Assembly: GCF_036924535.1 (NCBI RefSeq)
Contig: NZ_JAZHRT010000001.1
Coordinates: 3,782,001-3,846,000, forward strand
Direction of reading: 5' to 3'
DNA: 64,000 bases
From: Bradyrhizobium sp. AZCC 2262
GTDB taxonomy: Bacteria; Pseudomonadota; Alphaproteobacteria; Rhizobiales; Xanthobacteraceae
The translations under genes were made by a program, and so were the position numbers. The notes below the pieces were generated by a model. The model was not told the DNA's origin and did not search any database. It was given only the letters and a program-made list of their open reading frames with translations. The stretch's first letter is position 1. Each line of letters starts with the position of its first letter. Below are positions 40,416 through 58,669 of the stretch, one piece after another.

Positions 40416-41189
40416 TCACTTCAACGTCGTCGTCAGCGCATCCGAGAACGCTTCATCGGTGCGATCGAGCCGCAGCGGCGTGACCGATACGTAGCGTGCC
40501 GCAAGCGCCGCCAGATCGGTGCCTTCGGCCGGCGTATCCATCATCGCGGCGCGCTCAAAGCCGATCCAGAAATACGGATTGCCGCGGCCATCGTGGCGCT
40601 TGTCGACTTTCAGGAAGCCGAGATTGCGCTTGCCCTGACGGGTCACGCGCACGCCCTTGACCTGGTCGGGCGTGCAAGCGGGAAAGTTGACGTTGATCAC
40701 GGTGTTCTTCGGCACGCCGGCATCGATCACCTTGCGCAGGATATCGGGGCCGAATTTCAGCGCCGTGTCCCACAGCGGCGCGTGCCGGGTCTCGATGGAA
40801 AATTCCTGGCTCAGCGCAAATGACGGGATTCCCAGGATCGTGCCTTCAAGGGCGCCGGCGATGGTTCCGGAATAGACGACGTCCTCGGCGACGTTGCGGC
40901 CCCTGTTGACGCCCGACAGCACCAGATCGGGCCCCTTTTCGCCGAGGATGTGGCGCGATCCCATGATCACGCAGTCGGTCGGTGTGCCGCGCACTGCGAA
41001 ATGACGCGGGCCGACTTCGCGCAGGCGCAAGGGATCGTTGAGCGACAGCGAATGCGAGACGCCGGACTGATCGAGTTCCGGCGCCACGACCCAAACGTCG
41101 TCGGAAAGCCCGCGCGCGATCTCCTCGACGATCTTCAACCCCGGCGCATGGATGCCATCGTCGTTGGTGCAGAGGATACGATAGGACAT
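40416..41189 (-). CDS. surE: 5'/3'-nucleotidase SurE with element-supplied N terminus
   Basis: 257 residues. SurE is a metal-dependent nucleoside-monophosphate phosphatase (also exopolyphosphatase) of stationary-phase survival. Metal-site motif [10 protein letters not shown] at about 8-17, [24 protein letters not shown] and [20 protein letters not shown] are all intact. The usual start M-R-I-L-C-T-N has become M-S-Y-R-I-L-C-T-N: the ATG and first two extra codons come from the integrated element whose left core is at 41164-41174. The original start is still present at 56747 facing the other end. Catalysis should be intact; expression now depends on element sequence. Confidence 0.93.
41164..41174. 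repeat. Left attachment core
   Basis: TTGGTGCAGAG, inside surE codons for L-C-T-N on the minus strand; the bases to its right (gatacgataggacat) belong to the element and contain the new surE ATG. Confidence 0.85.
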
Positions 41190-41291
41190 TGAGACCGTTA
41201 GAGAAAAAAGAGAAACCCTTACAAACAGGCAGCTTCTCTTACACACTCAGGTCTCATGTTTCAATCGCCTCCCCGGTGTTTCTGACCTTCC

Positions 41292-41331
41292 GGTTAGCCG
41301 GGGCTAATCCAACCAAAACGCCGGGCTAATC
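41292..41331. promoter_or_regulatory. Possible integrase arm-type sites, left
   Basis: GGTTAGCCGGGGCTAATCC (contains the perfect dyad TTAGCC-GG-GGCTAA) and, 10 bases on, GCCGGGCTAATC. The GATTAGCCCG word recurs at the right end in the opposite orientation. Confidence 0.4.
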
Positions 41332-41363
41332 ACAACCCGTCATCATCCCATCGGGAAATTACG

Positions 41364-42725
41364 ATGCCAGTCCTCATCACCGAAAAGCATCTCGCAGCAA
41401 GCGACAAGCGAAAGACCATCAGCGACAGCAAGCAACTCGGCTTCGCGCTTCGCACCACACCGAATGGCGTGTTCACGTTCTACTATCAGCACCTCAATAA
41501 GAAGACCGGCAGGCGCGATTGGCACCTGATCGGCGCACACCCCGAATGGACCCCTGCACGGGCGCGCACCGAAGCAACCCGGCTCGCCGGCCTGGTCGCG
41601 GGCGAGAAAGACATCAAGCAAATCCGCCATCAGAAGATCGCGCGGGACCGTGCCGAGGGCGTGTCCTTCAAGCAGGTCCATGACGAATACATCTCCTTCT
41701 GCAAACAGCCGGTCGATCGGCGCTGGGGCACCGTGCCGCGAAAGGAAACTTGGAGGGGCATCCAGTATTCCCTCGCCCGTGCGCTGAAATGGTGGGGCAA
41801 CAGGGTCGCCAGCGAGATCACCAGCGCCGACATCAAGGAACTGTACGAAAGCTATGTCCGCGAGAAGCACCCGGCGCAGGCGAACATGGTTCGGGGTAAT
41901 TTGCGCACCATGTTCGTCTGGGCGATGCACGACGACCGGAGGTATCTCGCCGTCAATCCTTGCACCAAGCAACTGGAAGACGACAAGGCAATCGAGAAGG
42001 CCGACATCGACGACGGGCGCGTCCTGACCGCCGACGAACTTCGCACGCTCTGGTTCGGCCTCGATGACCCGAAGTGCCCCGGCACCAGGGGCGCGAGGCT
42101 GGCGCTGAAACTGTCGCTGGTCACGCTGCTGCGCACGGGCGAGTGCGTTGCCATCGAGCGCAACAAAATCACGGCCACCACGGTGACGATCCCGCTCGCG
42201 GTCGCGAAGGGTCGCCGCTCCAAGAAGGCGCGAGACGTCGTGCAGCCGCTGAACAGTCTGGCGCAGGAAATCCTTGGCGAGGTATTCGCGGGCGACGAGG
42301 GGCGGCGCTATGCCTTCCCCGGCACCAGCGGGAAGACCGGCGGCCACATGGCGCAGGGATCACTGAGCGTCTTGATGGGGTCCAGAACAACAAAAAAGAA
42401 CAGCCGGATGGGCATCTGCGAATACCTTGGCTTGGACGATGTGACGCCCCACGATCTGCGGCGCACCGGGGCTTGCATCCTTGAGCAGCTTGGCTATTCC
42501 GATGGCGTCATTGGCAGGGTGATGACGCACAAGACCGCAGACAAGGACGCTGCGTCGGTTACCCGCGACCACTACCTCGTTCCCGTTCAGATTATCGCCC
42601 GCCCGGTCGACCCGCGCGTCAGTGCGCTGAACGACCTCGATGACGCGCTGCGTGAAATCTTCGGTCTGCCGCGCGGCGGCTCGATAGAGCTACCTGCGCC
42701 GCCCCGGCTTCTGACGGCCGCCTAA
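41364..42725 (+). CDS. Tyrosine-recombinase integrase
   Basis: 453 residues. N-terminal arm-binding region of P4-integrase type, a SAM-like core-binding part (FKQVHDEYISFCKQ ... VRGNLRTMFVWAMHDDRRYL) and a catalytic domain with Arg257 (LLRTGECVAI), HDLR (His363, Arg366), His389 and the nucleophile Tyr404 in RDHYLVP. All active-site residues are visible. It reads away from the left attachment core 190 bases upstream, the usual place for an integrase of an island. No tRNA is adjacent; surE is the apparent target. Confidence 0.92.
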   Translation: MPVLITEKHLAASDKRKTISDSKQLGFALRTTPNGVFTFYYQHLNKKTGRRDWHLIGAHPEWTPARARTEATRLAGLVAGEKDIKQIRHQKIARDRAEGVSFKQVHDEYISFCKQPVDRRWGTVPRKETWRGIQYSLARALKWWGNRVASEITSADIKELYESYVREKHPAQANMVRGNLRTMFVWAMHDDRRYLAVNPCTKQLEDDKAIEKADIDDGRVLTADELRTLWFGLDDPKCPGTRGARLALKLSLVTLLRTGECVAIERNKITATTVTIPLAVAKGRRSKKARDVVQPLNSLAQEILGEVFAGDEGRRYAFPGTSGKTGGHMAQGSLSVLMGSRTTKKNSRMGICEYLGLDDVTPHDLRRTGACILEQLGYSDGVIGRVMTHKTADKDAASVTRDHYLVPVQIIARPVDPRVSALNDLDDALREIFGLPRGGSIELPAPPRLLTAA

Positions 42726-42802
42726 ACCCTCACACCGGGCGCGGGTCGTGTTGGAAGCACGACGCCGCGCCCTAACCATTCCAACTGTTAGGAGCAGTTC
42801 CA

Positions 42803-43090
42803 ATGGCTGACACTACTTCTGCATCCATCGTCACACTGCATCAACCGCAACCGGCGCGCGCCAAGACGCCGGCCGAGCGCGCCAGGGCGTACCGGCAGCG
42901 CAAACGGGCGGCTGCCCTCCCGGTTGTGGTGCCGGCGCTCGAAAACGCGGGAGCCCTCGATTTCGAGCAGCCCGCGCCAGCTTCGGACTCGAAGGCGATG
43001 CCGGTGATCTTGACCACCGACGAGGTGCGTGACGTCTGGATGCGCGCCCTGGGACGAGGCAAAGGCGCTACAGCGCCCGCTGCCGGATGA
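42803..43090 (+). CDS. Small basic hypothetical protein
   Basis: 95 residues: [40 protein letters not shown], then a Pro/Ala-rich part and [19 protein letters not shown]. The [13 protein letters not shown] stretch is basic and helix-like and recurs in phage and island small proteins. AGGAG precedes the ATG. Follows the integrase by 77 bases on the same strand. Confidence 0.55.
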
Positions 43091-43196
43091 GGCTTTAAAA
43101 ATCGTGGCGCGTGGCGCGGATAAGACAATGCCGCCGCCGCATGAAACCCGCCCAATGCCATTCTCGGTGAGCACCGGGCAAAATTCCCTAAAAAGC

Positions 43197-43222
43197 AAAA
43201 GGCCCCGCTTGTGGGCGGGGCC
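43197..43222 (-). terminator. Terminator of the small minus-strand gene
   Basis: On the minus strand AGGCCCCGCC-CACAA-GCGGGGCCTTTT: strong stem with T run after the stop at 43259. Confidence 0.75.
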
Positions 43223-43258
43223 TCGCTCGACAGAAATGTTACTATCTCAGGGTACGGC

Positions 43259-43450
43259 TTAGCGCGCGACCAGCAACCGCCAAACGCGCCGCGCAGGCTG
43301 TACCACCAACCGGAACACGGGGGTGGTTTGGGTACGGTAGTAGTTGGCGCGCAGCTTCGCCACCCGGTCTGCGCTCAGCGGCCGGGTTCCCTCGAAAACA
43401 CGCTGGCTCGCGTATTTTCGCACATTAGGGCATGGAGTGCGGGCTAACAT
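43259..43450 (-). CDS. Small basic hypothetical protein
   Basis: 63 residues, [60 protein letters not shown]. Strong AAGGAGG six bases before the ATG and a terminator after, which supports a real gene. Very basic; function unknown. Confidence 0.6.
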
Positions 43451-43504
43451 GGCACCCTCCTTCTCAACATCAGCGGAAACCGTACATGCACGGGTAGTCT
43501 GCGG

Positions 43505-43996
43505 TCAATCCGGCCTTTGCATTAACCAAAAACGCCTATCGAACGGGTCCGTTCCCTCGTCGAGGACAGAATATCCAGCATTTTCAAGAGTTTCCGTTAA
43601 CAAATGGTGCTTTTTGAGACTATTTTCAGTGGGGTCACGATCTTTTGTTACTCGGTAAATCAGCCCGCAATTTGCGTGTTCGATGAGCGCCAAGAGGCCG
43701 TGGCAGACCACATCCATGATCTTTCCGCGAATCTCCGCCGGAATATACGGCGCAGCCATTTGACGATCGTGCGTGCGAAAGGGTTCGATGCAGCCGTCGA
43801 GGGCGAACACGTCAATACTGAAAGAGAATTCCCAACAGGGCTCGGCGCAAATGTTTGTTTGTGCCAACTCACAAACTACCGATACGATTTTGTTCCTATC
43901 AGGACATTCGGCAATATTTACAGTCACAGCAGGGCAGCCATCGATAATATCCACCTCGATGTCGTATGGCGCTACTTTGAGAATCGAGGCGAACAT
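43505..43996 (-). CDS. Hypothetical protein, cargo gene
   Basis: 163 residues starting MFASILKVAPYDIEVDIIDG. Mixed alpha/beta sequence with SVVCELAQTNICAEPCWEFS, MDVVCHGLLALIEHANCGLI and KHHLLTETLENAGYSVLDEG. No domain recognised. Lower GC than core genes. Starts 5 bases after the stop of the 299-residue gene upstream, so the two form one unit. Confidence 0.6.
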   Translation of the reverse strand: MFASILKVAPYDIEVDIIDGCPAVTVNIAECPDRNKIVSVVCELAQTNICAEPCWEFSFSIDVFALDGCIEPFRTHDRQMAAPYIPAEIRGKIMDVVCHGLLALIEHANCGLIYRVTKDRDPTENSLKKHHLLTETLENAGYSVLDEGTDPFDRRFWLMQRPD

Positions 43997-44001
43997 TCAA
44001 A

Positions 44002-44901
44002 TTACTCGCTTGGCGTGTCGCCGCCCTTCGTGCTGATATTAATTTGACCGCTGCCCTTGTAGATTAGGTCGAAAATGTTGGCGGCGGCTTGCAGCCACTT
44101 TGCTCGTCCCTCGATTGTCCAGTTAGTTTGCGGCTCGGGCAATGTATCGAGCAGGCCTTGAATAAAAGGGTGATGCTTGCTTTCTTCCGGCTCCTTTTGC
44201 GCAACCACGGCGGGGCCGTCATGATCAACGGATTCAAGCTCATCCCACGAATTCCGGGGTGACGCTGGCAAAGGCGAATTTCCGATAATCGGTTCAATGA
44301 GCCTGTCCTGCCCATTGGGGAAAAAGCCTGCTTGCGCCGCAGACTTATCAAACGCCAACCGGGCATTTGTTTTCTGCTTCGAGGCGACCCCGAACCGAAC
44401 AAAGGCCATCTCAAGCCCGACTGGACGGGGCGGCAACTGCTTCCCCTTGAATTCGTCGTAGGTCTTGCGAAACAGCGGGACATTGAGAAAAGCGCTTGCC
44501 CGCGCTGCTTTCTGACGCCGCTCATCCGAATCCAATATCTCAAAGCCTGTGTCTGTCAGTTCGTACTTGCCATTATTTGCAAGGATCAGCCCAAACATTC
44601 GAGCAGTCGCCACCTTGGTCACGAAGGCCCCGCTGCCGGCAGACTGATTCATCACGCCAGCCAATTGCTCACGCGTCAGCGCCACGCCACCAGACTGCAG
44701 CATGGCGCGCGCGACAGTGATTGCGGATTCAAGGTCTTGGTAAGGAAAGCCAATCGACGACATTTCGCGGCCCGCTTCCTTTTGGACGGGCTTTTTTACC
44801 ATCCTGATACTCTTCGCCACCACTCCGGGCTTTTTTACTATCCTGATATTCTTCGCCACCATTCCAGGTAAAGCGGCCGGAGGATCTTGATCGTCAGTCA
44901 T
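44002..44901 (-). CDS. Winged-helix-like hypothetical protein, cargo gene
   Basis: 299 residues. An N-terminal part has twin KNIRIVKKPG and KSIRMVKKPV repeats. The middle (residues about 50-170) reads like a DUF5343-style winged helix: FPYQDLESAITVARAMLQSG, ALTREQLAGVMNQSAGSGAF, GLILANNGKYELTDTGFEIL. The C-terminal quarter is acidic. Such proteins often occur in anti-phage or regulatory cargo; that is an inference. Operon with 43505. Confidence 0.55.
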   Translation of the reverse strand: MTDDQDPPAALPGMVAKNIRIVKKPGVVAKSIRMVKKPVQKEAGREMSSIGFPYQDLESAITVARAMLQSGGVALTREQLAGVMNQSAGSGAFVTKVATARMFGLILANNGKYELTDTGFEILDSDERRQKAARASAFLNVPLFRKTYDEFKGKQLPPRPVGLEMAFVRFGVASKQKTNARLAFDKSAAQAGFFPNGQDRLIEPIIGNSPLPASPRNSWDELESVDHDGPAVVAQKEPEESKHHPFIQGLLDTLPEPQTNWTIEGRAKWLQAAANIFDLIYKGSGQINISTKGGDTPSE

Positions 44902-45052
44902 ATTGCTTCAACCGGGGCGATGCGCGGAGCAAAGCCCCGCGCTGGTTAAAGTGAATTGGTGAGACTGACACGCGACCGCTCATGCTTGCCGCGCGTCAGC
45001 ACGCATTAAGCAAGGCTTAAATCAGCAGGTGAAAACGACGCACGTCGAAACC

Positions 45053-45153
45053 CTCCGTCAAGGCGAGACTTGAACGGGGGTCGGAATCGTGGCATACACA
45101 GTCACGGTGATACAGCTTCGCGACAGGCCACTGTCCGAACCCCGTTGACGGAG
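45053..45153. ncRNA. Candidate structured RNA
   Basis: Outer stem CTCCGTCAA/TTGACGGAG, next stem CGGGGGTCGGA/TCCGAACCCCG and an inner GTGGC/GCCAC with a further internal dyad, about 100 nt. The paired segments are far apart and nested, as in a folded RNA, and no gene covers the region. No known RNA family recognised. Confidence 0.4.
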
Positions 45154-45320
45154 AGGCCTTAACTCCCGTCATAGCCACCTATCGGCGGTTCGTGCGTGAT
45201 GTTCTCGACAAACATCAATTTGCACGAGCCGCTAATGGGGCTCTCTACGGTACATACCAGAGTTTTTGGTTCGTGCAAGCGAAGGTTGATGCTTGCCTGC
45301 GATTTTCACAGCAATTCATA

Positions 45321-45504
45321 CCGTCATTTCACGCCATCTTGCCAATCCAATTCTGCGGTTCGGTAAGAGGGGCGATGTTTCATAATTTTCATTTATAGAA
45401 TTACTTATTTATCAATACCTTATCGTCGAACTATGAATGTCATCCCTGATACGTAGTTTTACCGAACCGCAAGATTGGATTGGCAAGATGACGCGAAATG
45501 ACGG
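45321..45504. repeat. Element with 46-bp inverted repeats
   Basis: Left arm 45321-45366 begins CCGTCATTTCACGCCATCTT; right arm 45459-45504 is its reverse complement with 42 of 46 matches. The 92-bp centre is AT-rich. Looks like a MITE or an origin or regulatory palindrome; no coding sequence inside. Confidence 0.7.
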
Positions 45505-45756
45505 CGTGTGACGCAAGCGGGGCCCTCACTGCCTGTGGATAGGCAGTAAGTAACTAAGCCCCTGAACGCGAATCACCACGGCTTTGCGGCGTTTTAGGCG
45601 GGATGATCTTTTGAAGAGATCGTCGAACTCTTGGGCCGTGGTTCTCGCGCCAATAGCCGGAGCCGTTTCTCTGAACCGCTCAGATTGCACTTTGTCACCC
45701 ACCTCTGGCGTTGCTTTTTACTTATTTGGCTCGCCTACACTTCCGTAGTGTGCGTG

Positions 45757-46125
45757 TTAGCCGGTTTGCGAAAACCGGAAGCGGTTGACGTTGACAATGC
45801 CAGCGTGCGTCACAGTACGCGCTATGGCCCGCGTTGAGCCTGCTGTTGTTGGCTCGATCTCGCCATTGACGCCGATAACTAATTGCTCAGTGATTGGCGC
45901 TGGCAGGATGCGTTCGCCCTCCCCGTTCGCCTCGACGGTGTAGCCGAGCTTGCGCAAATCACCGGGCAAGGTCGACCCTGGCAAACATTCCATGGTGACG
46001 TCCCGCGCACCGGGGACCGACGTCAGCCAGCCGTGCCGCGCGCGGACGTATTCGTTCAAGCCTTCGAACCGCGCCTTGCGGTCCTTCACCTCAAGTTTGA
46101 GCGGGATACGAAATTCCTTGCTCAT
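45757..46125 (-). CDS. Hypothetical protein
   Basis: 122 residues, MSKEFRIPLKLEVKDRKARF ... LRKLGYTVEANGEGERILPA ... ITEQLVIGVNGEIEPTTAGS. Last gene of the run 48485-45757; ATG overlaps the preceding stop (ATGA). A CCGGTTT-GCGA-AAACCGG hairpin lies over its last codons. No family. Confidence 0.6.
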   Translation of the reverse strand: MSKEFRIPLKLEVKDRKARFEGLNEYVRARHGWLTSVPGARDVTMECLPGSTLPGDLRKLGYTVEANGEGERILPAPITEQLVIGVNGEIEPTTAGSTRAIARTVTHAGIVNVNRFRFSQTG

Positions 46126-46316
46126 CGCGCGGCGCTCTCATCGGCGAGCGCCAGGGCCTGATCGACATAGAACCGCAGCCGCTCACGCAGAGTCTCGCGC
46201 AGTCTCGGGATGTCGCGAGGGTCGGCGTGTTTTATTGTCCGGAGCTGGACCATGATGCTGCCGGCGGCGTCGTCGATCTCGCCCAGGCTGCGGTCAAAGG
46301 CAGTCGGGATAGCCAT
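46122..46316 (-). CDS. Small hypothetical protein
   Basis: 64 residues: MAIPTAFDRSLGEIDDAAGS, IMVQLRTIKHADPRDIPRLR, ETLRERLRFYVDQALALADE. Helical. Start overlaps the preceding gene by 23 bases and its stop overlaps the next ATG by 4. Confidence 0.55.
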   Translation of the reverse strand: MAIPTAFDRSLGEIDDAAGSIMVQLRTIKHADPRDIPRLRETLRERLRFYVDQALALADESAAR

Positions 46317-46491
46317 GTAAGTGCAGCCACATTTCCAAATCGATGCAGCGATAGTCGCCGAAGCGACGGCGCGCTGCCTGGAACAGCTCCCAACCTGACA
46401 TGACATGCTCAGGCTGGGAGTACGGCGAGATGTTCCAGGCCTCTTTCTCACAGAAAGCCTGCACCGCCGAATCGGAGCAAACGATCGGCAT
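46294..46491 (-). CDS. Small hypothetical protein
   Basis: 65 residues: MPIVCSDSAVQAFCEKEAWN, ISPYSQPEHVMSGWELFQAA, RRRFGDYRCIDLEMWLHLHG. Its ATG shares a base with the stop of the 260-residue gene (TGATG). Confidence 0.5.
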   Translation of the reverse strand: MPIVCSDSAVQAFCEKEAWNISPYSQPEHVMSGWELFQAARRRFGDYRCIDLEMWLHLHGYPDCL

Positions 46492-47273
46492 CAGCGGTCT
46501 CCCTGGATGCGACCGTCTGCCTTCATCGCCTGCATCTTCTTTCTATTCTGCAAGTAGAGATATTCCTTCTCTGTGTTCGACATGTTCGGCGCGCTGAACG
46601 ATGTGCGCGCGATCACACGCTCCTCCGGAGTCAACGTGTTCTCGGACTGTCGTCGTCCACCTGTTGCCATCGGTACCTCGCGAGAAACGGGCGCTGAGAA
46701 CGGGACTGATCTTCGTGGCGCTGCCGGCGGTGCCGCCGGCTCATGCGCGGCCAGGGCCTCGCCGAGCAGCGCCTCTGCTTCAGAGTTGAGGTCTTCAACG
46801 GCCATACCCACCTCGTGGTGCCGCTGCGCGTTCTCCGGCGTCGACCTTGCTTGCGCGGAGGTCAGCTTCTGATGGTGCTGGACCTCGCGCGCGACATTGT
46901 CGACGACAAAATTATCCAGCTCCGGCGTGTCGTCCTGCAGGCCCGCGTCGAGTCCGGCGCGCCAGATTCGCGCCATAACGGGGGCGATCGTCGGGTCCAG
47001 CAACACTGGAAACTTCTTCAGGAAGTCTCGCTTGTGGTCGGACAGGTCGGGCAGCCGGTCGATGTATTGCTCGACGCTCTGCGGCTGTTGCTGACGCTGC
47101 AGCGCCTCGGCGTGCTGCTGGGCCGCCAGGGCTCGCTGCAGCTCGTTGCCGGCATCACCACCTGGTGGCGGCAACGGAGCAGCCGGTGGGGCTGCCTGGG
47201 CCGCCACGGGCATAGGTGGTTCGATCGGCGCATCAGCGACGGCGGCCGAAACGTATTTGCGCCGAACTGCCAT
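46491..47273 (-). CDS. Pro/Ala-rich phage-like protein
   Basis: 260 residues. N-terminal Pro/Ala-rich segment, a glutamine-rich stretch (QQHAEALQRQQQPQ), a helical region (SVEQYIDRLPDLSDHKRDFL, KKFPVLLDPTIAPVMARIWR) and a charged C terminus (TEKEYLYLQNRKKMQAMKAD). Pattern as in scaffold or virion-associated ORFs of rhizobial prophages, but not a firm match. Confidence 0.6.
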   Translation of the reverse strand: MAVRRKYVSAAVADAPIEPPMPVAAQAAPPAAPLPPPGGDAGNELQRALAAQQHAEALQRQQQPQSVEQYIDRLPDLSDHKRDFLKKFPVLLDPTIAPVMARIWRAGLDAGLQDDTPELDNFVVDNVAREVQHHQKLTSAQARSTPENAQRHHEVGMAVEDLNSEAEALLGEALAAHEPAAPPAAPRRSVPFSAPVSREVPMATGGRRQSENTLTPEERVIARTSFSAPNMSNTEKEYLYLQNRKKMQAMKADGRIQGDR

Positions 47274-47566
47274 CAGGCGTCTCGACGAACGCCGGGCATG
47301 TAGTTGTCGTCATCGGCGACGTTCATGTCCGATGTCGCCGCCATCCTGGCTTCGACCTTGCGCGAAACCTTCGGGCCCATCTGCGAGCTGCGCACATCCA
47401 TCTTGCCGGTGTCCGCCAGCTTCATCGTGCGGGATGCACGCGGCGCGATCTCGCTGTTCGCCTTGGCGCGGTCGGCCCAATAGTCGAGGTTCTTCTGATC
47501 TCGGCCGGCACCGTGCGGGCCGCGCTGCGGGTTGGCGTATCCCTTCAAACGATCTTCAAGCGACAT
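47273..47566 (-). CDS. Small hypothetical protein
   Basis: 97 residues from MSLEDRLKGYANPQRGPHGA, chosen because CCGGAGG lies before the ATG at 47566. Then YWADRAKANSEIAPRASRTM and end DDDNYMPGVRRDA. Its stop shares a base with the next ATG. Confidence 0.6.
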   Translation of the reverse strand: MSLEDRLKGYANPQRGPHGAGRDQKNLDYWADRAKANSEIAPRASRTMKLADTGKMDVRSSQMGPKVSRKVEARMAATSDMNVADDDNYMPGVRRDA

Positions 47567-47570
47567 GGTG

Positions 47571-47894
47571 TTACCTCCGGATGATCGGAATGATCGGCGC
47601 AACCGAGCCGACCTGTCTATTGTGATCGTACGGCTGCTGCGGTAGGCGGTCGCCTCTGCCTTTGTCCTGCTTGTACTCGGTGTCTTTGCTGGTGATCAGC
47701 TCGCCGAGCGCGTCGAGCACGGCCTCGCCGTGATAGGTCGCATCCCAGGAGCGGCCCGATGGGTGCCGCAGCCGCATGTTCCAGTTGAAGTCTCCGTGCT
47801 CGCGGGTCGCGATCGCGGTGCGTGTCCGGCCATCGGCGTCGCGGCCGGTGATCGTGAACGATTGCGGGATCGAGGAGCGAAATGTCAGGACCAT
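47571..47894 (-). CDS. Small hypothetical protein
   Basis: 107 residues: MVLTFRSSIPQSFTITGRDA, DGRTRTAIATREHGDFNWNM, RLRHPSGRSWDATYHGEAVL. Beta-rich first half. ATG shares a base with the stop of the next upstream gene. Confidence 0.55.
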   Translation of the reverse strand: MVLTFRSSIPQSFTITGRDADGRTRTAIATREHGDFNWNMRLRHPSGRSWDATYHGEAVLDALGELITSKDTEYKQDKGRGDRLPQQPYDHNRQVGSVAPIIPIIRR

Positions 47895-48277
47895 TATCGT
47901 GAGCCTTGATCATCGCGGTATTGGCCGGTCGCACGCATGTGGCGAAGCCGCTCTTTATTGGCCGCGTAAGCCTGCTGACGCTGTTCGTTGGTGATGCTCT
48001 GATCGCTGCCGGCAATGCCGTTCGCGATAGAGATTTCGTCCTCGTTCAAGCCGTATCTGTTTCCGCGCGGCTGCTGCTGGGAGATGACGAAGTTTTGCGC
48101 GATCCGGTCGAGCGCGGCGCGCTTTTGGTCCATCTCGAGTATGGTGTTGGCTGCGTTCATCGTTTCATACTCGTCTTCGCAAATTCTGCCCGACTCGTAT
48201 CGCGCGACCGCCTCTGCTCGATCTGCGGCGAGCCGTTGATATTGCGCTTCGATAACGGCTCGATGTTCATAGGCCAT
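47894..48277 (-). CDS. Helical hypothetical protein
   Basis: 127 residues from MAYEHRAVIEAQYQRLAADR (ATG at 48277), then AEAVARYESGRICEDEYETM and a C-terminal NEQRQQAYAANKERLRHMRA. Coiled-coil-like. Overlaps the preceding gene by 11 bases. Confidence 0.6.
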   Translation of the reverse strand: MAYEHRAVIEAQYQRLAADRAEAVARYESGRICEDEYETMNAANTILEMDQKRAALDRIAQNFVISQQQPRGNRYGLNEDEISIANGIAGSDQSITNEQRQQAYAANKERLRHMRATGQYRDDQGSR

Positions 48278-48751: not shown

Positions 48752-48797
48752 CGGATCGACTCCTTTGACAACGGAAACGCTGGCGGATAATAATCCT

Positions 48798-49172
48798 ATG
48801 GCGTCGGACACGCAAGGTGCGAGCACTGCTTCTAATATCCGGAGCGTCAAGATGGGGATGCCTGTTTTAGTCACGTTGACCTCGTCAGGCATAGGGCGCG
48901 CCGTCGACTTGGACTGGATGAGTTCGAAGTTCACGAGCTTTTCGGTTACCGGATCGAGCAGCGGAACATTTTCCTACATCGTCGAAGGTGCGCTTGACGA
49001 CCTGCAGCAAACGTCGTCGGCCAACGTCGCGTGGTTCGCCCTCTCATCGGCGACAACCGCGAACTCATCGATCAACATTTTCAGCGGTCCACTCGCTGGC
49101 ATCCGGCTCAATGCGAGCGCGATGTCGAGCGCGATCCTCACCCTTCGCATTGTTCAGGGAATTGGCGGGTGA
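48798..49172 (+). CDS. Phage-virion-like beta-rich protein
   Basis: 124 residues from MASDTQGASTASNIRSVKMG. The second half (SFSVTGSSSGTFSYIVEGAL, then AGIRLNASAMSSAILTLRIV) has the beta-sandwich look of small phage decoration or structural proteins (TGxxxxxVEGSxD and VRLNxSAxxxGxxxLxV). Stop overlaps the next start (TGATGA). Start could be 19 codons later. Confidence 0.5.
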   Translation: MASDTQGASTASNIRSVKMGMPVLVTLTSSGIGRAVDLDWMSSKFTSFSVTGSSSGTFSYIVEGALDDLQQTSSANVAWFALSSATTANSSINIFSGPLAGIRLNASAMSSAILTLRIVQGIGG

Positions 49173-49819
49173 TGAACGACATCGACGCCATCGAAACCGG
49201 TCGCCAGGCGTGGCAGCGACTCCGCGAGCGCGAGCGAAAGCTGTGGCAGGACTGGATGCAGGTCGGCCACGCGCTGCAGGTCGGCCGGACGGAGGCGCTG
49301 AAGGCCGCCGGCACGAACGTGCCGTTCGGCAAGGTCTACACACGGTTCATGGCGGAGTGGTTGCGAGCCAACCAGTTCGACGACATCGGGCAACAGGTCC
49401 GCTATCGGCTCCTGCAGTGCATGGAGAACATCGCCGCGATCGAGAAATGGCGCAGCACCCTCGATGAGCAGCGCCTTCGCCGGTTCAACCATCCTGACAG
49501 CGTCTGGAGCCATTGGCGACAGAGCACTGCGATCAAGGCGAACCGCAAACCCGTCGCACGGCCGCCCTACTGCAACGGCACCGCCAACGTCGGCCGGTCG
49601 ATATACTTCAGCCAGGGCATGGTGCGACGTGCCGCCATCGCGATCGGTGAAAACTGGTCGAACGACACCTTCCGGCTCGCCGCCGTTGCGTTGCATGCCG
49701 CGATCCGCAACGAACAAGATTTACTCGAATTTTTCCCTCCCGATCCGCCGCCGAAGCCAGCACTGCCAGTACGTTCAGCAAAACGTATTTCCGCGCCGGC
49801 CACGCTCGAACTCGCGTGA
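49172..49819 (+). CDS. Hypothetical protein, phage-associated
   Basis: 215 residues. N-terminal helical part (RQAWQRLRERERKLWQDWMQ, VGHALQVGRTEALKAAGTNV) and YTRFMAEWLRANQFDDIGQQ look like a DUF3102-type phage protein, but the match is loose. C-terminal Pro-rich. Translationally coupled to the preceding gene. Confidence 0.5.
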   Translation: MNDIDAIETGRQAWQRLRERERKLWQDWMQVGHALQVGRTEALKAAGTNVPFGKVYTRFMAEWLRANQFDDIGQQVRYRLLQCMENIAAIEKWRSTLDEQRLRRFNHPDSVWSHWRQSTAIKANRKPVARPPYCNGTANVGRSIYFSQGMVRRAAIAIGENWSNDTFRLAAVALHAAIRNEQDLLEFFPPDPPPKPALPVRSAKRISAPATLELA

Positions 49820-49831
49820 GAGGCACCCGCC

Positions 49832-49969
49832 ATGGTTTCGACCTTCACCCCGAACATCCAGCTCGAAGAACCGGCGCGCGGCGACCAGGTCGGCTTCTGG
49901 CACACGCCGGTCAATAAGTGCGATGATTGCCGGCGCAGCCATGATGTCCGCTTTGCAGCAACAAGCTGA
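49832..49969 (+). pseudogene. Phage tail-fibre-type N-terminal fragment
   Basis: MVSTFTPNIQLEEPARGDQV then GFWHTPVNK: the usual opening of phage tail proteins (TPNxxLxxPARGDxVxxWDxPVNxN). Homology stops at about residue 29 and the frame ends at 45. A severed first exon-like piece left by deletion. Confidence 0.6.
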
Positions 49970-50314
49970 CGTCGTTGGCGCGGCTACAGATGTCCGTTAA
50001 GCGCCAGACTCGGAAGTTCCCGATTTTTGCGACGCTATTGCCCTCCACTTGCGAAAGTCGCCGAGGAGCCGGCATTACCTCTCTTCAGCTCAGGGGCAGA
50101 TACAACGGCAAAACCAGACCCTGAGCGGACATTCGCACATCCCCCGACGGGGCTATGTCTCCCGCTACGGTCGGCCGTTAGCATGCCAGCGGGACAAGAC
50201 CGCGTCAAACCAACTTGATTTGTCTTGCAAACGCGCCGTTCCCGGGCGATTTGGCGTCGTCTCAACGAACGATACCCCGACGAATACCGACGGCTTTGCG
50301 CGGAGGATGATCCG
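49970..50314. other. 345-bp region without a clear gene
   Basis: Holds degenerate 'tgtccg' type sequence and an upstream open frame for the cNMP gene with no good start (MQTRRSRAIWRRLNERYPDE would add 30 residues). Nothing else seen. Confidence 0.4.
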
Positions 50315-51127
50315 ATGGGGTCCAACAGTGCAGCTTCGATACTAGACCGCATTCTTGATACGGCGGCGGACAATCTCAGGATCGAAAAGATTCTGGTTCA
50401 GATGGGTCTCGATCCGAACAACATCACCTACGACGCACTATTCAACCGGCTGCTGGAAATTGTGCTGGCCAACATCACGCTTGCCAATATGTTTGCCGTG
50501 GTTGGGGCCATCTTTCTTGTCGCTACCTTGCTGATGCAGACAATCGTGCCACTGCGCGTCGCGAACATGGTCGGCTGCATGTTCTTCGTCGCCTATGGCG
50601 CGCTCTCGGGAAATTTCGGGGCTTTCATCCTCTATCTGCTCTTGCTGCCGGTCAATGCAATCCGCCTCCGTCAAATGCTCAATCTGATCAAAAGGGCACG
50701 TATTGCGACGGAGGGAGATACCTCATTGGAACCGCTCAAACCGTTCATGACTGAGCGCAGATATCGCCGGGGAGACAAATTGTTCAAGAAGAATGATGCA
50801 GCTTCCGAAATGTTTCTAACGGTCACAGGAACGTTTTTGGTCAAGGAAATCGGCGTCGAGCTTCCGCCGGGACGTCTCATGGGCGAACTCGGTTTCCTTA
50901 CTCCCAATCAGCGGAGAACCGCTACCGTCGAATGCATCGAAGACGGGCAAGTGATGACTATTACTTATGAAAAGCTGCTCGAGATTTATTTTCAGAATCC
51001 ACAATTCGGCTATTACGTTCTTGTGCTAACCAGCCAGCGCTTGCTCGAGAACATATCGCGGCTGGAAGGAATCATCGCACAAGAAAAGACCGCGCGGCAG
51101 ACTCTAGCCACGGATGACATAGCTTAA
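50315..51127 (+). CDS. Membrane-anchored cyclic-nucleotide-binding-domain protein
   Basis: 270 residues from MGSNSAASILDRILDTAADN (GGAGG eight bases before). Three to four hydrophobic segments (MFAVVGAIFLVATLLMQTIV, VGCMFFVAYGAL, AFILYLLLLPVNAIRL), then a cNMP domain with RRGDKLFKKNDAASEMFLTV, PPGRLMGELGFLTPNQRRTA and TITYEKLLEIYFQNPQFGYY. Popeye- or YgaC-like arrangement. The phosphate-binding RTA motif is present. Inferred cAMP- or ligand-gated envelope sensor; cargo of the element. Confidence 0.75.
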   Translation: MGSNSAASILDRILDTAADNLRIEKILVQMGLDPNNITYDALFNRLLEIVLANITLANMFAVVGAIFLVATLLMQTIVPLRVANMVGCMFFVAYGALSGNFGAFILYLLLLPVNAIRLRQMLNLIKRARIATEGDTSLEPLKPFMTERRYRRGDKLFKKNDAASEMFLTVTGTFLVKEIGVELPPGRLMGELGFLTPNQRRTATVECIEDGQVMTITYEKLLEIYFQNPQFGYYVLVLTSQRLLENISRLEGIIAQEKTARQTLATDDIA

Positions 51128-51201
51128 CCCTTGGCTCTAGATGTCCCGCACTTTTGGTAACAGGACATCCCGACGCAGCGCAGGTCTTGCGATGCAACGA
51201 C

Positions 51202-51218
51202 GTCCGGTTTGGGTCAAA
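51202..51218 (+). repeat. 17-bp direct repeat flanking the SDR remnant, left
   Basis: GTCCGGTTTGGGTCAAA, repeated at 52290. Confidence 0.6.
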
Positions 51219-51340
51219 CTCGGAAGTCTGGATGCTCAACAGGGAGGTCGGCTTTGCTTTCAATAACGGACATCATCAGCCAAGCCTGTCAGGTCCGAAA
51301 AGTGCCAACAGCAGACATCGGCCGTGAGCAGATGCGATAG

Positions 51341-52194
51341 CTAACGCCTCGGCGTCCTTCCGCGGATGCGGTCGAAGCCCTGCTTGATCGCGGCGAAGCG
51401 CCTGTCGATCGTGGCTTCGTGCTCGGTGTCGGTGAAGATGTAGGGCCAGTCATTTTCGATTGCCTCGCGAACCAGTTCGCCGACATAGAGCGGATCGATG
51501 CCAAATTTGTTGATCCGCTCCTGGAGTGCCTTGATAATATCGGCGATCGGTCCTTCCGTCGGCGGACTGCCGATCTTCTCGACGATCCGCTGCGGCACGT
51601 TGCGACGAAAATTAAAGATATGAGTGCGGACAACGCCCGGACACAGGACGGATACCCCGATTTTCCGCGGCGCGAGCACCGGCCGCAGTCCTTCGGACAG
51701 AGCCACCACTCCATATTTGGTCACATCATACTGCGGACTTCCTCCAGCGATCAGCCCGAAGACGGACGCCGTGGAAACAACTTGCCCTCCTTCGCCGTGC
51801 GCCTCGATCAGCGGACCGAAAATCTCGATGCCCCAAATCACCGACATCAGATTGACGTCGAGAACCCAATTCCAACCCGCATCTGTCCAATGACCATAAC
51901 CCCGGCCGCCGGCGACCCCCGCATTGTTGACTAGAATATGGACTTTTCCGTAGCGCGACACGGTGGCATCCGCCGCGCGGCGTGGAGGTCTGCTTTAAGC
52001 GATACATCCGCTCTCACGCCGTCAACGTCGGCGTTGGTAAGTTTCAATTTCGCTACCGCCGTTGCTAACGCCTCTTCCTCGATGTCGCATAACATGACCT
52101 TCACTCCCGCCTGCGACAGCGCCGTGGCGATCCCTAACCCGATGCCTGATGCTGCTCCGGTGATGAAGGCTGTCCGTCCGGTAAGGTCTTGCAT
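51341..52194 (-). pseudogene. Short-chain dehydrogenase/reductase, frameshifted
   Basis: The 5' part (52194-51960) has the cofactor motif TGAASGIG at residues 12-19 and DGVRADVSLKADLHAA. The 3' part, in another frame from about 51965, has VHILVNNAGVAGG, the YDVTK catalytic Tyr/Lys and a normal C terminus. Shift in the GCCGCGCGGCGGATG stretch; adding or removing one G or C restores it. Reads as a pseudogene or a sequencing error. Confidence 0.78.
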
Positions 52195-52706
52195 GTGCGT
52201 GTTTCCGTTGCTTTTGCAATTGGCCTTGGCAGATACCTATCTGGGTTCGCTGAGTTTATAGTACTTAAGCTTACAGGTGCGCCCGCCGTGTCCGGTTTGG
52301 GTCAAAAGCCGACCACCCGTCCGTCACGATCGATGTCCGCTCTGCCCGCAACAGCGGAAATTGGATCGCCGCGTCGGCTCACGGAAGCCCGCCATGCGGT
52401 CGTGCGGAGATCATGAGCAAGCCCGACCACAAATGTCCCGGTCCGGGTGTAGCCCAGCATCACTACAGGGCCACACTCTCCATGAAGGTAGAGCGCGTCA
52501 AACCCCCGGACCGGAGATAAAACCGTGCATCAAGGCCCGGAAAGAATTTCCAAAAAACTTCCGGAAAATTTGACGGGAAATTGGCGAGCATGGGGAGAGT
52601 GAGGGAAAGAAAAGAAGAGGCCACGCCCGATCCCCGGTGCCGGGTGGGGGTAACGGGTCCGTCACAGGATCGCGGTCTGATCTCGTCAGGCCGCGCCAGG
52701 CGGCCG
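52195..52706. other. Intergenic region, 512 bp
   Basis: Contains the right direct repeat and an AT-containing stretch near 52550-52590 with several TTCC/GGAAA words (aagaatttccaaaaaacttc, cggaaaatttgacggg). No gene recognised. Confidence 0.4.
52290..52306 (+). repeat. 17-bp direct repeat flanking the SDR remnant, right
   Basis: GTCCGGTTTGGGTCAAA, as at 51202. The repeats bracket the SDR gene, so it may be an inserted unit. Confidence 0.6.
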
Positions 52707-53258
52707 TCAGGCCAGCGCGCGGTACATCGTGGCCTCGGAGACCTCGTAGACCTTCGCCAGTTCGGCTTGCGTCTCGCCCTTGGCATAGCGCGCGGCGGCG
52801 ACGCGGCGCTGCTCCGGCGTCAGCTTGACCTTGCGGCCGAACTTCGTGCCCTTGGCCCTGGCGCGCTCGATGCCTTCCTCGCAGCGAGCACGGATCAGGC
52901 CGCGCTCAAACTCATTGACGCCGCTCATGACCGTGACCAGCAACCGGCCAACCGGGGTCGAGGTGTCGCACCAGCTCTCGCCGAGGCTGACGAAGCCACA
53001 GCCGCTCTCATCAAGATCGTGCAGGATGTTGGCCAGGTCGCGGGATGACCGCGCTAGACGATCGAGCTTGGCGACATAGACGGTATCGCCGGGCAACAAC
53101 GCCTTCATGAGCTTATTGAACTCGCGGCGGTCCTCTGTGTTTTTGCCCGAGACCTTCTCGCTGTAAATCTTCTCGCAACCGGCCGCCTTCAACGCAGCCA
53201 CCTGGCCCTGGTAGTCCTGGCCCTTCGAGCTGACCCGCGCATATCCGATCTTTGCCAT
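52707..53258 (-). CDS. Serine resolvase/invertase-family recombinase
   Basis: 183 residues. Catalytic Ser10 in IGYARVSSKGQD, then VYVAKLDRLARSSRDLANIL and SGVNEFERGLIRARCEEGIE; a short C-terminal Hin-type HTH (ETQAELAKVYEVSEATMYRA). Normal full-length resolvase. It could resolve element multimers or invert a segment; no paired sites identified. Confidence 0.92.
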   Translation of the reverse strand: MAKIGYARVSSKGQDYQGQVAALKAAGCEKIYSEKVSGKNTEDRREFNKLMKALLPGDTVYVAKLDRLARSSRDLANILHDLDESGCGFVSLGESWCDTSTPVGRLLVTVMSGVNEFERGLIRARCEEGIERARAKGTKFGRKVKLTPEQRRVAAARYAKGETQAELAKVYEVSEATMYRALA

Positions 53259-53359
53259 GTTCTGCCCCAGTTTTGAAACCCAAATAATTGCAAGTTAGAA
53301 CATGCGGCAAAACCAGGGTCTACAGATAACTTGCAAAGAGGCTACTTTTTGAAAGTGCG

Positions 53360-53965
53360 TCAGGCCAGCCGGCGCTGGCCCTTCGGTGTCGGCCGGAGCA
53401 TCGCAAGGCCGAGCGCCGCTTCGTTACTCGGCGGTGGCGTCGGGTCGACGATCGTCGCACCAGCGGCTGCACGGCCCTCCAGGTCAGCACGGACCTCGGC
53501 GATCATCTCGTCGAAGGCCGAGAGCGCCGAGGCCGCGTCGCCGCCGCCGAGCTGCTCGATCATGTCCGAGGTCACCTTCTCGATCGTGAGGTCACCGAAC
53601 GCGCCAGGAGGGCCGATCTCGATCCTCTCGCGCATGAACCCGAGCAGCCTCGCCTTCAGGCCCGCCGCGTTGCTCGCGGCACCGAACTGTTCGGCGGCGA
53701 CCGCGCCGTCGAAGACCCGGTCGAATTGCTCGGTCAGCGTGTCGACCGTTGTCCGCGTTTTCCGCTCCGCCGGAGCCGTCAGCTCGGCAATACGTGCGCG
53801 GACCTCATCTTTTTTCATCAACCGGGATGCAGCCATTGCTGCGGCATGTCCTTCGGCCGCGTAACCGGCCATCTGGTAGATTTGCGCCTGGCTGAGACCC
53901 TGGGTAGCGCCCCGAACGGTGAGCTGGGCGAAGTTCTCGTGCTTCTGGTTTGTGAGAGCTGGCAT
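53360..53965 (-). CDS. Terminase small subunit-like protein
   Basis: 201 residues from MPALTNQKHENFAQLTVRGA. The first 70 residues (LSQAQIYQMAGYAAEGHAAA, MAASRLMKKDEVRARIAELT) match the TerS helix-turn-helix pattern: LTxKQxxFxxxxxxG ... AYxxAGY ... ASRLxxxxxVxxRIxEL. The remainder is helical with a Pro-rich end. No large terminase gene is present; phage satellites often carry TerS alone to redirect packaging. Confidence 0.65.
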   Translation of the reverse strand: MPALTNQKHENFAQLTVRGATQGLSQAQIYQMAGYAAEGHAAAMAASRLMKKDEVRARIAELTAPAERKTRTTVDTLTEQFDRVFDGAVAAEQFGAASNAAGLKARLLGFMRERIEIGPPGAFGDLTIEKVTSDMIEQLGGGDAASALSAFDEMIAEVRADLEGRAAAGATIVDPTPPPSNEAALGLAMLRPTPKGQRRLA

Positions 53966-54006
53966 GTGTTTAACCCTACACCGGCAGGCGTGATGGCCAA
54001 TAGCCT

Positions 54007-54106
54007 GGTTTCCGGTTTCTGCCAGTTTCCAGAAACTTCGGGTTTGTATCTCACAGGCGCGCGCGTGTAGCCGATAATTGAAGGTTTCGGAAACCACCGG
54101 AAACCT
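54007..54106. promoter_or_regulatory. Cluster of GGTTTCCGG-type repeats
   Basis: GGTTTCCGG (54007-54015), the dyad GTTTCTG...CAGAAAC (54015-54036), GGTTTC-G-GAAACC (54083-54095) and CCGGAAACCT (54097-54106). Five or six iterated half-sites upstream of the TerS-like gene, as in operator arrays or replication iterons. Confidence 0.5.
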
Positions 54107-54218
54107 GAGACCGAGATCGGCCCTGCCAAATTTTTTTCGCAAGCGTTTTTCAACCGCACCGTGTCGGGCATTTGCGAGCTGCGTAACAGGTTAGTTGCAA
54201 GCATGCACCGTGTTTTTG

Positions 54219-54305
54219 CATTGAAACAGTGTGGCCGGTAGGAGGCCGCGACCGCGCGTTACCTGCGTTTCAATGAAGTGTTACAGCAATGCAGCGGCTG
54301 TAACA
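54219..54305. promoter_or_regulatory. Dyads ahead of the primase operon
   Basis: CATTGAAAC (54219-54227) paired with GTTTCAATG (54267-54275), and TGTTACAG (54279-54286) with CTGTAACA (54298-54305) around an 11-base centre. Placed 85-170 bases before the first gene of the primase operon. Confidence 0.5.
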
Positions 54306-54390
54306 TCGCCTCTTCAACTGTTGCGACGCATAGCGCAGGGATCGGCACCTCCTTATCGTGAAAAGGCTGGTTCAACGAGCGGAGGTGCAG

Positions 54391-54570
54391 ATGTCACAGC
54401 GTGAGAAGAAGGCCTGTCAGGCCTGGTTCGACGAACCGGAGATAGCGCAGATCGACCACTGGCGTCGCCGGCAGGCCGTCATCCCGACGATAGCGGAAGC
54501 GATGCGCGTGCTCGTCAAGCGCGGCCTAGCGGCAGAAAACGGTGGTGAGGAGCGGGGACAGGCGGCATGA
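54391..54570 (+). CDS. Small RHH-like protein
   Basis: 59 residues: MSQREKKACQAWFDEPEIAQ, IDHWRRRQAVIPTIAEAMRV, LVKRGLAAENGGEERGQAA. The DHWRRRQxxIPTxAEAxRxLVxRGL pattern is that of a ribbon-helix-helix DNA binder. GGAGG is 6 bases before the ATG. First gene of the primase operon; stop overlaps the next start. Confidence 0.6.
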   Translation: MSQREKKACQAWFDEPEIAQIDHWRRRQAVIPTIAEAMRVLVKRGLAAENGGEERGQAA

Positions 54571-54890
54571 ACCACGACCCGTCGCTGCAAGGCGGGTCGT
54601 GGCAGGAATGCGAAGAGTTCGGAACGCTCAACAATTATCCTGTCGCCGCCGCTGCCGCAATAGTCGCACGCGCCTGCACGTGTGCGGACATGAACGCTGT
54701 CACGTTGGTCGATGCTGGTATCGACATGCAGCAGCTCGCGCATGTGGCCGAGCGCGCGCTTATGCCGACCCCGCAGGTGGTGCCAGCGGCGATCTGCGAC
54801 ATCGCCGACGTCACCACCTTCTGCACCTTCGCACGAAACCGCCTCAGCGAGCCTGAACGCCGCTACTACCGCCTGCGGAGCCGGTCATGA
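54567..54890 (+). CDS. Hypothetical protein in primase operon
   Basis: 107 residues: MNHDPSLQGGSWQECEEFGT, LNNYPVAAAAAIVARACTCA, then YYRLRSRS at the end. ATGA overlaps on both sides. No family recognised; position suggests a replication accessory role. Confidence 0.55.
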   Translation: MNHDPSLQGGSWQECEEFGTLNNYPVAAAAAIVARACTCADMNAVTLVDAGIDMQQLAHVAERALMPTPQVVPAAICDIADVTTFCTFARNRLSEPERRYYRLRSRS

Positions 54891-56293
54891 GCGAGCCCAA
54901 AGCAAAGCCGACCCTGGTGGACTTCGACGAGCGCCTTAGCGCCGAACAAGCCGCGAAGGACATCGCCCCAGAGCTGTCCGAGGACTATGTCGCGCTCGAG
55001 TTCGTCGAACGGAACATTGACGCCGTTCGCTTCGACCACACCAAAAAGCGCTGGCACGTTTGGTCGGGGAACCGCTGGAAGAGGGACGCGACTGCCGTTG
55101 CCTTCGCCTGGACTCGCAGCCTGGTGCGCGGCTTGGCGAGCAACCAAAAGAGCGCCGGAGACCGGCGGCGTCTCGGCTCGCTCAAGTTCGCCGATGGTGT
55201 GGAGCGGTTTGCACGCACCGATCAGCGGATTGCGGTCACGCACGACCATTGGGACCGGAACATCGAGGTGCTAGGCACGCCGGGCGGCATCGTCGATCTT
55301 CGGACAGGTGAACTTTTCGCCCCCGCGCCCGAGCTGTTCATCACGCGCTCCACCGCCGTCGATCCCGACGACATCGCCGACTGCCTCCGGTGGCTGCAAT
55401 TCATCAACCAGGTCACCGCCGGTGACGCGGCGCTGAGGCGTTTCCTGCAGCAATGGGCCGGTTATTGTCTAACCGGCGAGACCAGGGAGCAGAAGCTCGC
55501 GTTCATTTTGGGTCCTGGCGGCACCGGCAAGAGCACCTTCGCTGCCACGTTGCGAGGGATCATGGGGGACTACGCGATCTCGGCCGCGATGGAGACTTTC
55601 GCCGACGCGAAGTTCGAACAGCATCCCGAGCAGATCGCGCGCCTCGACGGCATGCGAATGGTGGTGGCGTCGGAGACCGAGGCCGGACACAAGTGGCGCG
55701 CGAACCGCGTGAAGTTGCTCACCGGCGGTGACGCCGTCACCGCGAGACACTTGTTCGAAAACAGCTTCGACTTCCGGCCGAAGTTCAAGCTGACGTTCCT
55801 GGGCAATCACGCACCGGCGATCACCAACCTTGAAACTGCGATCCAGCGCCGGTTTCTGGTGGTGCCGTTCAACCACAAGCCGGTGGAGCCGGACCTGCGC
55901 CTCGACGACATCCTTGCCAGGGAGTGGCCGGGCATCCTGCGGTGGATGATCAAGGGCGCGGTCGACTGGTATGAGCATGGCCTCATGGTGCCGAAGGCCA
56001 TCAGCGAAGCCACCACGCAATACTTCGACGAGCAGGATGTCTTCCGGCAGTGGCTGGAAGAGGCCTGCGAGGTCGATCCGAAGAACGAACATCTCATGGA
56101 GAAGTCCGTCGACCTGTTCGGGTCGTGGTCGCTGTTCGCCAAGGCCCATGGCGAGGTGGCTGGCACGCAGGCAACGTTCAACGAAAACCTCCGGTTTCGC
56201 GGCTTCGAGGTGAAGGCGATCAAGGCGCTCGGCACCAAGGGGTGCCGGAGAATCAGGCTGAAAATCCAACCGCATTGGAGTGACGAGTCATGA
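54887..56293 (+). CDS. P4/D5-type primase-helicase
   Basis: 468 residues. N-terminal D5_N-like part (DYVALEFVERNIDAVRFDHT, KKRWHVWSGNRWKRDATAVA), then a superfamily 3 helicase with Walker A GPGGTGKST (residues 209-217) and GMRMVVASETEAGHKWRANR with the motif B acid, and FLGNHAPAITNLETAIQRRF (sensor/arginine finger). Typical replication protein of phages and satellites. It lacks an obvious N-terminal polymerase domain, so it may be the helicase half only. Confidence 0.9.
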   Translation: MSEPKAKPTLVDFDERLSAEQAAKDIAPELSEDYVALEFVERNIDAVRFDHTKKRWHVWSGNRWKRDATAVAFAWTRSLVRGLASNQKSAGDRRRLGSLKFADGVERFARTDQRIAVTHDHWDRNIEVLGTPGGIVDLRTGELFAPAPELFITRSTAVDPDDIADCLRWLQFINQVTAGDAALRRFLQQWAGYCLTGETREQKLAFILGPGGTGKSTFAATLRGIMGDYAISAAMETFADAKFEQHPEQIARLDGMRMVVASETEAGHKWRANRVKLLTGGDAVTARHLFENSFDFRPKFKLTFLGNHAPAITNLETAIQRRFLVVPFNHKPVEPDLRLDDILAREWPGILRWMIKGAVDWYEHGLMVPKAISEATTQYFDEQDVFRQWLEEACEVDPKNEHLMEKSVDLFGSWSLFAKAHGEVAGTQATFNENLRFRGFEVKAIKALGTKGCRRIRLKIQPHWSDES

Positions 56294-56604
56294 AGCACGA
56301 CCCCCTTGTTGATGCTGTAAGGAGCCGAGACATGACCGACACCGTCCACGAGCCCCCGCGCGCCCCGCAGCGGGAGGAGGTGCGCGAGATGCTCACCGCT
56401 GAACAGGTGCTCGCACTGATCCCGGTCAGCCGCACAACGCTGTTCCGGCTGGAGAGGGACAAGCTGTTTCCGCTGGGTCAGGCGATCACCCCGCACCGCA
56501 AGCTGTGGTTTCAGGATGAGGTCGTAGCTTGGCAGAAGGCCCTGCAAGACCCGGATAGCACACTCTCGCAGACAATGGCCCTGCGCGCGCGGCGCGGCAA
56601 TTAA
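56290..56604 (+). CDS. AlpA-like excisionase/regulator
   Basis: 104 residues. MLTAEQVLALIPVSRTTLFR, LERDKLFPLGQAITPHRKLW, FQDEVVAWQKALQDPD: the MerR-like winged helix of AlpA-family regulators (LxxxEVxxxxGxSRTTLxRxxxxGxFPxxxxxGxRxxxWxxxEVxxW). ATGA overlap with the primase. In P4-like elements AlpA controls integrase expression; here it is at the opposite end from int. A terminator follows 60 bases later. Confidence 0.85.
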   Translation: MKHDPLVDAVRSRDMTDTVHEPPRAPQREEVREMLTAEQVLALIPVSRTTLFRLERDKLFPLGQAITPHRKLWFQDEVVAWQKALQDPDSTLSQTMALRARRGN

Positions 56605-56649
56605 CCGTTGCTGATTTTCCTGTGCTTCCAACTCCAAAAAGCACCTGAG

Positions 56650-56672
56650 ATTAGCCCGACGTTAGCCCGAGC
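56650..56672. promoter_or_regulatory. Possible integrase arm-type sites, right
   Basis: GATTAGCCCG (56650-56659) and GTTAGCCCGAG (56662-56672), tandem, inverted relative to the left-end GGGCTAATC words. About 60 bases inside the right core. Confidence 0.4.
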
Positions 56673-56690
56673 TTCTCGGGCTATTTTTTT
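56664..56690 (+). terminator. Terminator of the primase operon
   Basis: TAGCCCGAG-CTT-CTCGGGCTA followed by seven Ts. Strong rho-independent terminator inside the right end of the element; it also insulates the surE operon side from reading in. Confidence 0.88.
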
Positions 56691-56727
56691 GTGTAGTTAA
56701 ATCAGCTGGTTAAGCGAATTGACAAAA

Positions 56728-56738
56728 TTGGTGCAGAG
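56728..56738. repeat. Right attachment core
   Basis: TTGGTGCAGAG followed by aattcgcatccgtcaaaa: the minus strand reads ATG CGA ATT CTC TGC ACC AA (M R I L C T N), i.e. the displaced native start of surE at 56747. Confidence 0.9.

Positions 56739-57304: not shown

Positions 57305-58669
<1,365 letters not shown>

Follow-up and report, generated by a model that had tools for sequence, protein, structure and literature searches.

An integrative element in the 5′ end of surE that supplies the gene with a new start codon in a Bradyrhizobium genome

How can surE remain a complete gene when its native start codon lies 15.6 kb from its body? The question is raised by a 64,000-nucleotide stretch of the Bradyrhizobium sp. 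AZCC 2262 genome (hereafter the window), for which an earlier note had proposed an integrative element in the 5′ end of surE. Empty sites in relatives and recurring inserts with the same core back that proposal, and the sequence comparisons presented here confirm that the 15.6 kb between two copies of a short core constitute an integrative element lying within codons 4-7 of native surE.

Core repeats, empty sites and the start of surE

The 11-base core TTGGTGCAGAG occurs in exact form twice in the window, at 41164..41174 (left core, plus strand), where the body of surE meets the element, and at 56728..56738 (right core, plus strand), and these direct repeats at both ends give the element its length of 15.6 kb. 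With their flanks, TTGGTGCAGAGGATACG and TTGGTGCAGAGAATTCG, the two copies match at 15 of 17 positions, in full agreement with the earlier note. A third site with one mismatch is present, and shuffled versions of the window hold on average 1.07 sites with at most one mismatch (at least three sites in 9 of 100 shuffles); since near-matches are this common, the repeat alone is weak evidence, and it is the comparison with relatives that decides. The GC content of the element is 59.5%, against 63.0% for the remainder of the window. As the window holds no tRNA gene, a tRNA gene as integration target was ruled out.

At the right core and beyond it, the minus strand reads ATGCGAATTCTCTGCACCAA (56728..56747), which had been taken for the native surE start and is indeed the start found in relatives. 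At a measured distance of 95 bp, the spacing given before, follows a small gene (56843..57292, minus strand) that is positioned upstream of surE in element-free relatives, and then a gene at 57305..58636 (minus strand), which we take to be serS and which also lies upstream of surE in relatives. A pattern search for the native start ATGCGNRTNCTNTGYACCAAYGAYGAYGGNAT, allowing one mismatch, found it in 259 of 265 same-genus genomes. It is missing from six: the window genome (G000), G251, G110, G073, and two assemblies that are 75% and 67% complete and show no SurE match (G096 and G100). In a separate search, 144 of 146 same-genus genomes had a match to SurE. Among the 30 surE loci inspected first, comprising the window genome and 29 near relatives, all 29 relatives carry the native ATGCG start, and 28 have the small gene within 1.5 kb upstream, the exception (L028) lying at a contig edge. 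Of 25 further loci, 23 keep the native start (the exceptions being L098 from G110 and L099 from G073), with serS inside the retrieved stretch in 22 of these 23 (L062 ends at a contig edge) and serS-to-surE spacings from 496 to 2,084 bases; for the remaining genus genomes the comparison covers the native-start pattern alone, not the upstream genes. The uninterrupted surE start preceded by the small gene, which the earlier note had named as the arrangement to look for, is accordingly the empty site. That the repeats arose by chance, being only 11 bases long and of a kind whose near-matches are expected in shuffles, while an old rearrangement split serS from surE, is extremely improbable in view of the native start standing at the right copy and in those 259 genomes, and of the same core, arm and integrase recurring at surE in G251.

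The core falls in surE codons 4-7, which encode L-C-T-N just before the conserved DDG; single-base changes inside it occur in several of the listed genus genomes. Their conservation in 259 of 265 genomes may make these codons a natural landing site in the genus.

On the other side, surE (40416..41189, minus strand; PF01975, E 1e-59) is untruncated, as an ATG supplied by the element at 41189 opens a frame of 257 residues; the mechanical list of open reading frames places the start at an upstream GTG instead, for 276 residues. This start codon (41187-41189) belongs to the left arm of the element (41175..41363), which also holds a leader and the spacer to the integrase gene, and the new 5′ end of surE that it provides is in frame: the protein begins MSYRILCTN in place of native MRILCTN. 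The same nine residues open surE in G251 and G073, and MAMNSGLRVLCTN does so in G110. The first arm base beside the core differs between G000 and G251, and the next 33 bases (41176-41208, across the new ATG) are identical. The R-I codons read CGTATC in the G000 arm against CGAATT in the native start, a difference that would fit an attP whose sequence was copied from a different surE gene. As read from the DNA, native start and leader are replaced by those of the element, and surE stays open as a complete frame. It is the only match to the SurE family (PF01975) in the 9.48 Mb single-contig window genome. Another genome, G025, carries an additional SurE-like gene (C1:7360153-7360890) whose product shares 49% identity with the SurE of the window.

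The leader contains a promoter-like pair for surE, TTGAAA and TAAGAG separated by 17 bases (41236..41264, minus strand). The form TTGAAA-N17-TANNNN is found in the leaders of G000, G251 and G073, that is, in all three with the MSYRILCTN start, and ends 42-46 bases before the ATG; TTGAAA was not found in the G110 leader. A scan of 41000-41500 for the sigma-70 consensus returned no promoter site, so the pair is only a candidate promoter.

Gene content and ends of the element

A tyrosine integrase of 453 residues (41364..42725, plus strand; Arm-DNA-bind_3 and Phage_integrase domains) starts 190 bases from the left core. At the opposite end, an excisionase-like protein (56290..56604, plus strand; phrog_66, E 8e-10, and no Pfam match) is a candidate directionality factor; small proteins of the PHROG excisionase families occupy the same place near the right end in the G251 element and in a prophage record, G549, described below. 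Between them lie a cargo gene with no assigned function (44002..44901, minus strand), a short-chain dehydrogenase split over two frames according to the open reading frame translations (51341..52194, minus strand), a serine resolvase (52707..53258, minus strand; PF00239, E 7e-41), a terminase small subunit-like gene (53360..54142, minus strand; phrog_51, E 9e-11, with Pfam Terminase_2 below its cut-off at 22.7 against 26.1 bits) and a D5-type primase/helicase (54887..56293, plus strand; D5_N, and phrog_6088 with E 5e-97 over profile positions 322-764 of 772), whose match is confined to the C-terminal region of the profiles. The cargo gene is shared with the G110 insert at surE (73-74% identical); its homologues at E<=1e-40 occur in 7 of 265 genus genomes, the window genome included, with identities of 52% or less after G110.

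Twenty distinct element proteins were scanned with Pfam, ten of them also with PHROGs. Among these 20, no conjugation machinery was found and, the terminase small subunit-like protein aside, no phage structural gene. With an integrase by one end, end repeats and an empty site in relatives, we class the element as a tyrosine-integrase integrative element, neither an ICE nor a complete prophage. It may nonetheless have entered by the surE route and now be a fixed, stripped prophage that kept its ends and lost excision, a possibility to which we give somewhat less than even weight and which agrees with the preferred explanation as to origin. The lone terminase-like gene, the split dehydrogenase, the partial match of the primase and the shrunken look of the G073 and G110 cases point that way; the open integrase and excisionase-like frames, the exact cores and the retained end repeats speak against it.

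The ends carry further repeats. TTAGCC or its complement GGCTAA stands in the left arm at 41294, 41302 and 41324 (41294..41329), and a TTAGCC pair stands near the right core at 56651 and 56662 (56651..56667, plus strand), with an 11-base spacing that is kept in the window element, G251 and G549. Five of the seven copies in the window element fall within its outer 260 and 160 bases; in G251, 4 of 19 copies are near the ends, and in G549, where the left arm is missing from the record, 3 of 6. We read these repeats as possible arm sites of the integrase.

Other inserts at surE and a sister clade with another target

The search for further elements with the same core in surE, which the earlier note had suggested, was productive in G251, in G110 and in an IMG/VR prophage record; the shared core spans 11 bases in G000, 14 in G251 and 13 in G110, with TTGGTGCAGAG as the common part. 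In G251 the cores stand at 5119576 and 5196412, 76.8 kb apart, and the integrase, 73% identical to that of the window, is placed and oriented relative to surE as in the window, with an excisionase-like gene at the opposite end. The DNA of the two elements matches in the left arm and integrase (76.7%, 1397 bases), at the excisionase-like end (86.9%, 176 bases), in a piece of 93 bases and at both junctions. Comparison of the proteins adds a 71-residue match of 39% identity to 49031-49819, a few more short ones close by, and resolvase matches that are distant. By eye, translations of the G251 element (L083-L086) include an apparent ABC transporter of the branched-chain amino acid type, amidase-like genes and transposases.

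Five IMG/VR records encode a relative of the window integrase. In one of them, UViG_2927012437_000002 (G549, L114), an integrase of 67% identity and the excisionase-like gene are accompanied by an exact core at 45396-45406, followed by the native surE start and the small gene, the same right junction as in the window; the left junction is out of sight because the record begins at the integrase gene. Six of eight scanned proteins from its phage part match tail, head-closure or terminase families, and on these matches the record is a tailed-phage-type prophage. In a further record (G550, L118), the integrase is 66% identical and no exact core was found.

Two inserts at surE appear without such an integrase. 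G110 has cores at 41121 and 44631 with 3.5 kb inserted between them, and its 117 kb stretch shows no relative of the window integrase. In G073, surE begins with MSYRILCTN behind a related leader, some 7.5 kb separate it from the small gene, and there is one core copy; the 20 kb stretch again shows no integrase relative, and the insert is best read as decayed. Given this absence, both would be remnants or have been placed by something else. By eye, the G073 insert (L113:7831-15352) encodes apparent HTH, ImmA/IrrE-like, papain-like peptidase and MazG-like proteins. In the same stretch (L113:4112-6021) a large serine recombinase-like frame, preceded by a TraA-like fragment (both likewise judged by eye), ends 13 bases before serS, and another integrated element may occupy the 5′ side of that gene.

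Integrases of a sister group, on one tree branch and 60-61% identical to that of the window by tblastn (63-65% in a separate comparison table), were found in G002, G202 and G150 (L034, L035 and L036). All three lie upstream of a gene which, from its motifs, is presumably L,D-transpeptidase-like. The sequence CTAACTTTTGGCTCCCAATG is uninterrupted in the seven element-free relatives inspected (L142-L148, of 13 such loci), from which the site was placed, and in the three carriers the match to these relatives begins at TGGCTCCCAATG; no second copy of the core or far junction was found by pattern or in two sister stretches. These integrases appear to insert at or next to TGGCTCCCAATG, a probable second target of the same integrase clade. 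Two prophages, UViG_2654588141 and UViG_2888419890, carry integrase sequences identical to those of G002 and G202, on the same branch as the window integrase; as in the window element, integrase and target gene are divergently oriented, and in contrast to it the insertion is in non-coding DNA upstream of the target gene. Their site raises the thought that surE is a secondary target of an integrase that prefers other places, which is very unlikely, as the two nearest integrases found (G251 at 73% and G549 at 67%) both sit in surE elements and the attP arm supplies an in-frame SurE start.

Among 391 family genomes, a wider search for the integrase gave three matches at E<=1e-60, each of them within the genus, and among 397 order genomes the window genome alone matched at E<=1e-70, both samples omitting known carriers such as G251. 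The plasmid collection yielded 18 records and the phage collection 35, every one below 60% identity, and no near DNA match of the element was found among phages. A peptide-pattern search of genome contigs for integrase relatives returned 27 stretches, none of them confirmed, and a degenerate pattern of the attP-side start had no match there.

What the integrase-bearing elements share is mainly an end module of arms, integrase and excisionase-like gene, and their cargo differs; three bodies of cargo, the 15.6 kb element with its primase, the 76.8 kb island and the tailed-phage-type prophage, have one surE-specific module in common.

Proposed mechanism and known systems

Insertion, empty site, in-frame replacement of the start and recurrence in other genomes are seen directly in the aligned DNA. 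In the mechanism that we propose, the tyrosine integrase would recombine the 11-base core carried by a circular form of the element with its identical counterpart in surE codons 4-7. Integration would leave the native start stranded next to its former upstream neighbours, 15.6 kb from the body of surE, and join that body in frame to a start codon and leader on the left arm, giving a complete gene begun in element DNA. The excisionase-like protein by the right core would be the likely directionality factor, and excision would be expected to restore native surE. Catalysis by the window integrase, excision, the excisionase role, promoter activity and the function of SurE are all predicted from sequence, and we hold the whole account, an integrase-driven insertion in surE with a rebuilt start, to be highly likely. 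A bolder reading would make surE, a nucleotide phosphatase, an element-controlled gene: its link to serS lost, it would be read from a leader with likely integrase arm sites, its level would follow integrase binding or the state of the element, and one surE-specific end module (integrase, arms, excisionase) would have moved between a tailed phage, the 76.8 kb island and a small element that has its own primase. We regard this combination as doubtful.

surE joins the genes whose 5′ end is an integration site with a start rebuilt by the element. Natural repeats of the case comprise two integrase-bearing elements located at both ends, a prophage located at one, and two inserts lacking an integrase, and the sister clade with its other target makes a natural pair for the study of integrase site change.

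The earlier note knew of no report of surE as an integration target, and our literature search, which covered open-licence papers, where "sure" is a common word, found none. The passages of PMC8627217, PMC12884075, PMC11476347, PMC4482086 and PMC12424338 make no mention of surE, and those of PMC8557891 mention SurE, though not as a target. As 43.4% of TIGER/Islander islands lie in protein-coding sequences according to the passages of PMC12424338, surE sites may sit undescribed among them.

The closest known counterparts are the dusA elements, for which the passages of PMC4482086 and PMC8409611 likewise describe a tyrosine integrase that enters a conserved protein gene at its 5′ end, a target 5′ end that is element-derived and an original one reunited on excision, int on one side of attP and the directionality gene on the other, and prophages and islands at the same site. 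The window element differs in its target, surE rather than dusA, and lies outside the dusA-integrase family proper. Going by the same passages, a shared core of 11-14 bases stands against the 21-base semiconserved repeat of the dusA elements, and a candidate directionality factor of the PHROG excisionase families against a PrtN-like one. Carriers of surE elements were found in one genus and one virus record only. The SXT-type ICEs at prfC, as outlined in passages of PMC8409611, show a comparable mode of 5′-end targeting with a target other than surE; unlike them, the window element has no conjugation genes among its scanned proteins. Overall, the mechanism appears to be of a known kind, that of the dusA and prfC elements, acting on a target, surE, that we did not find described and with what seems an unusually good natural replication.
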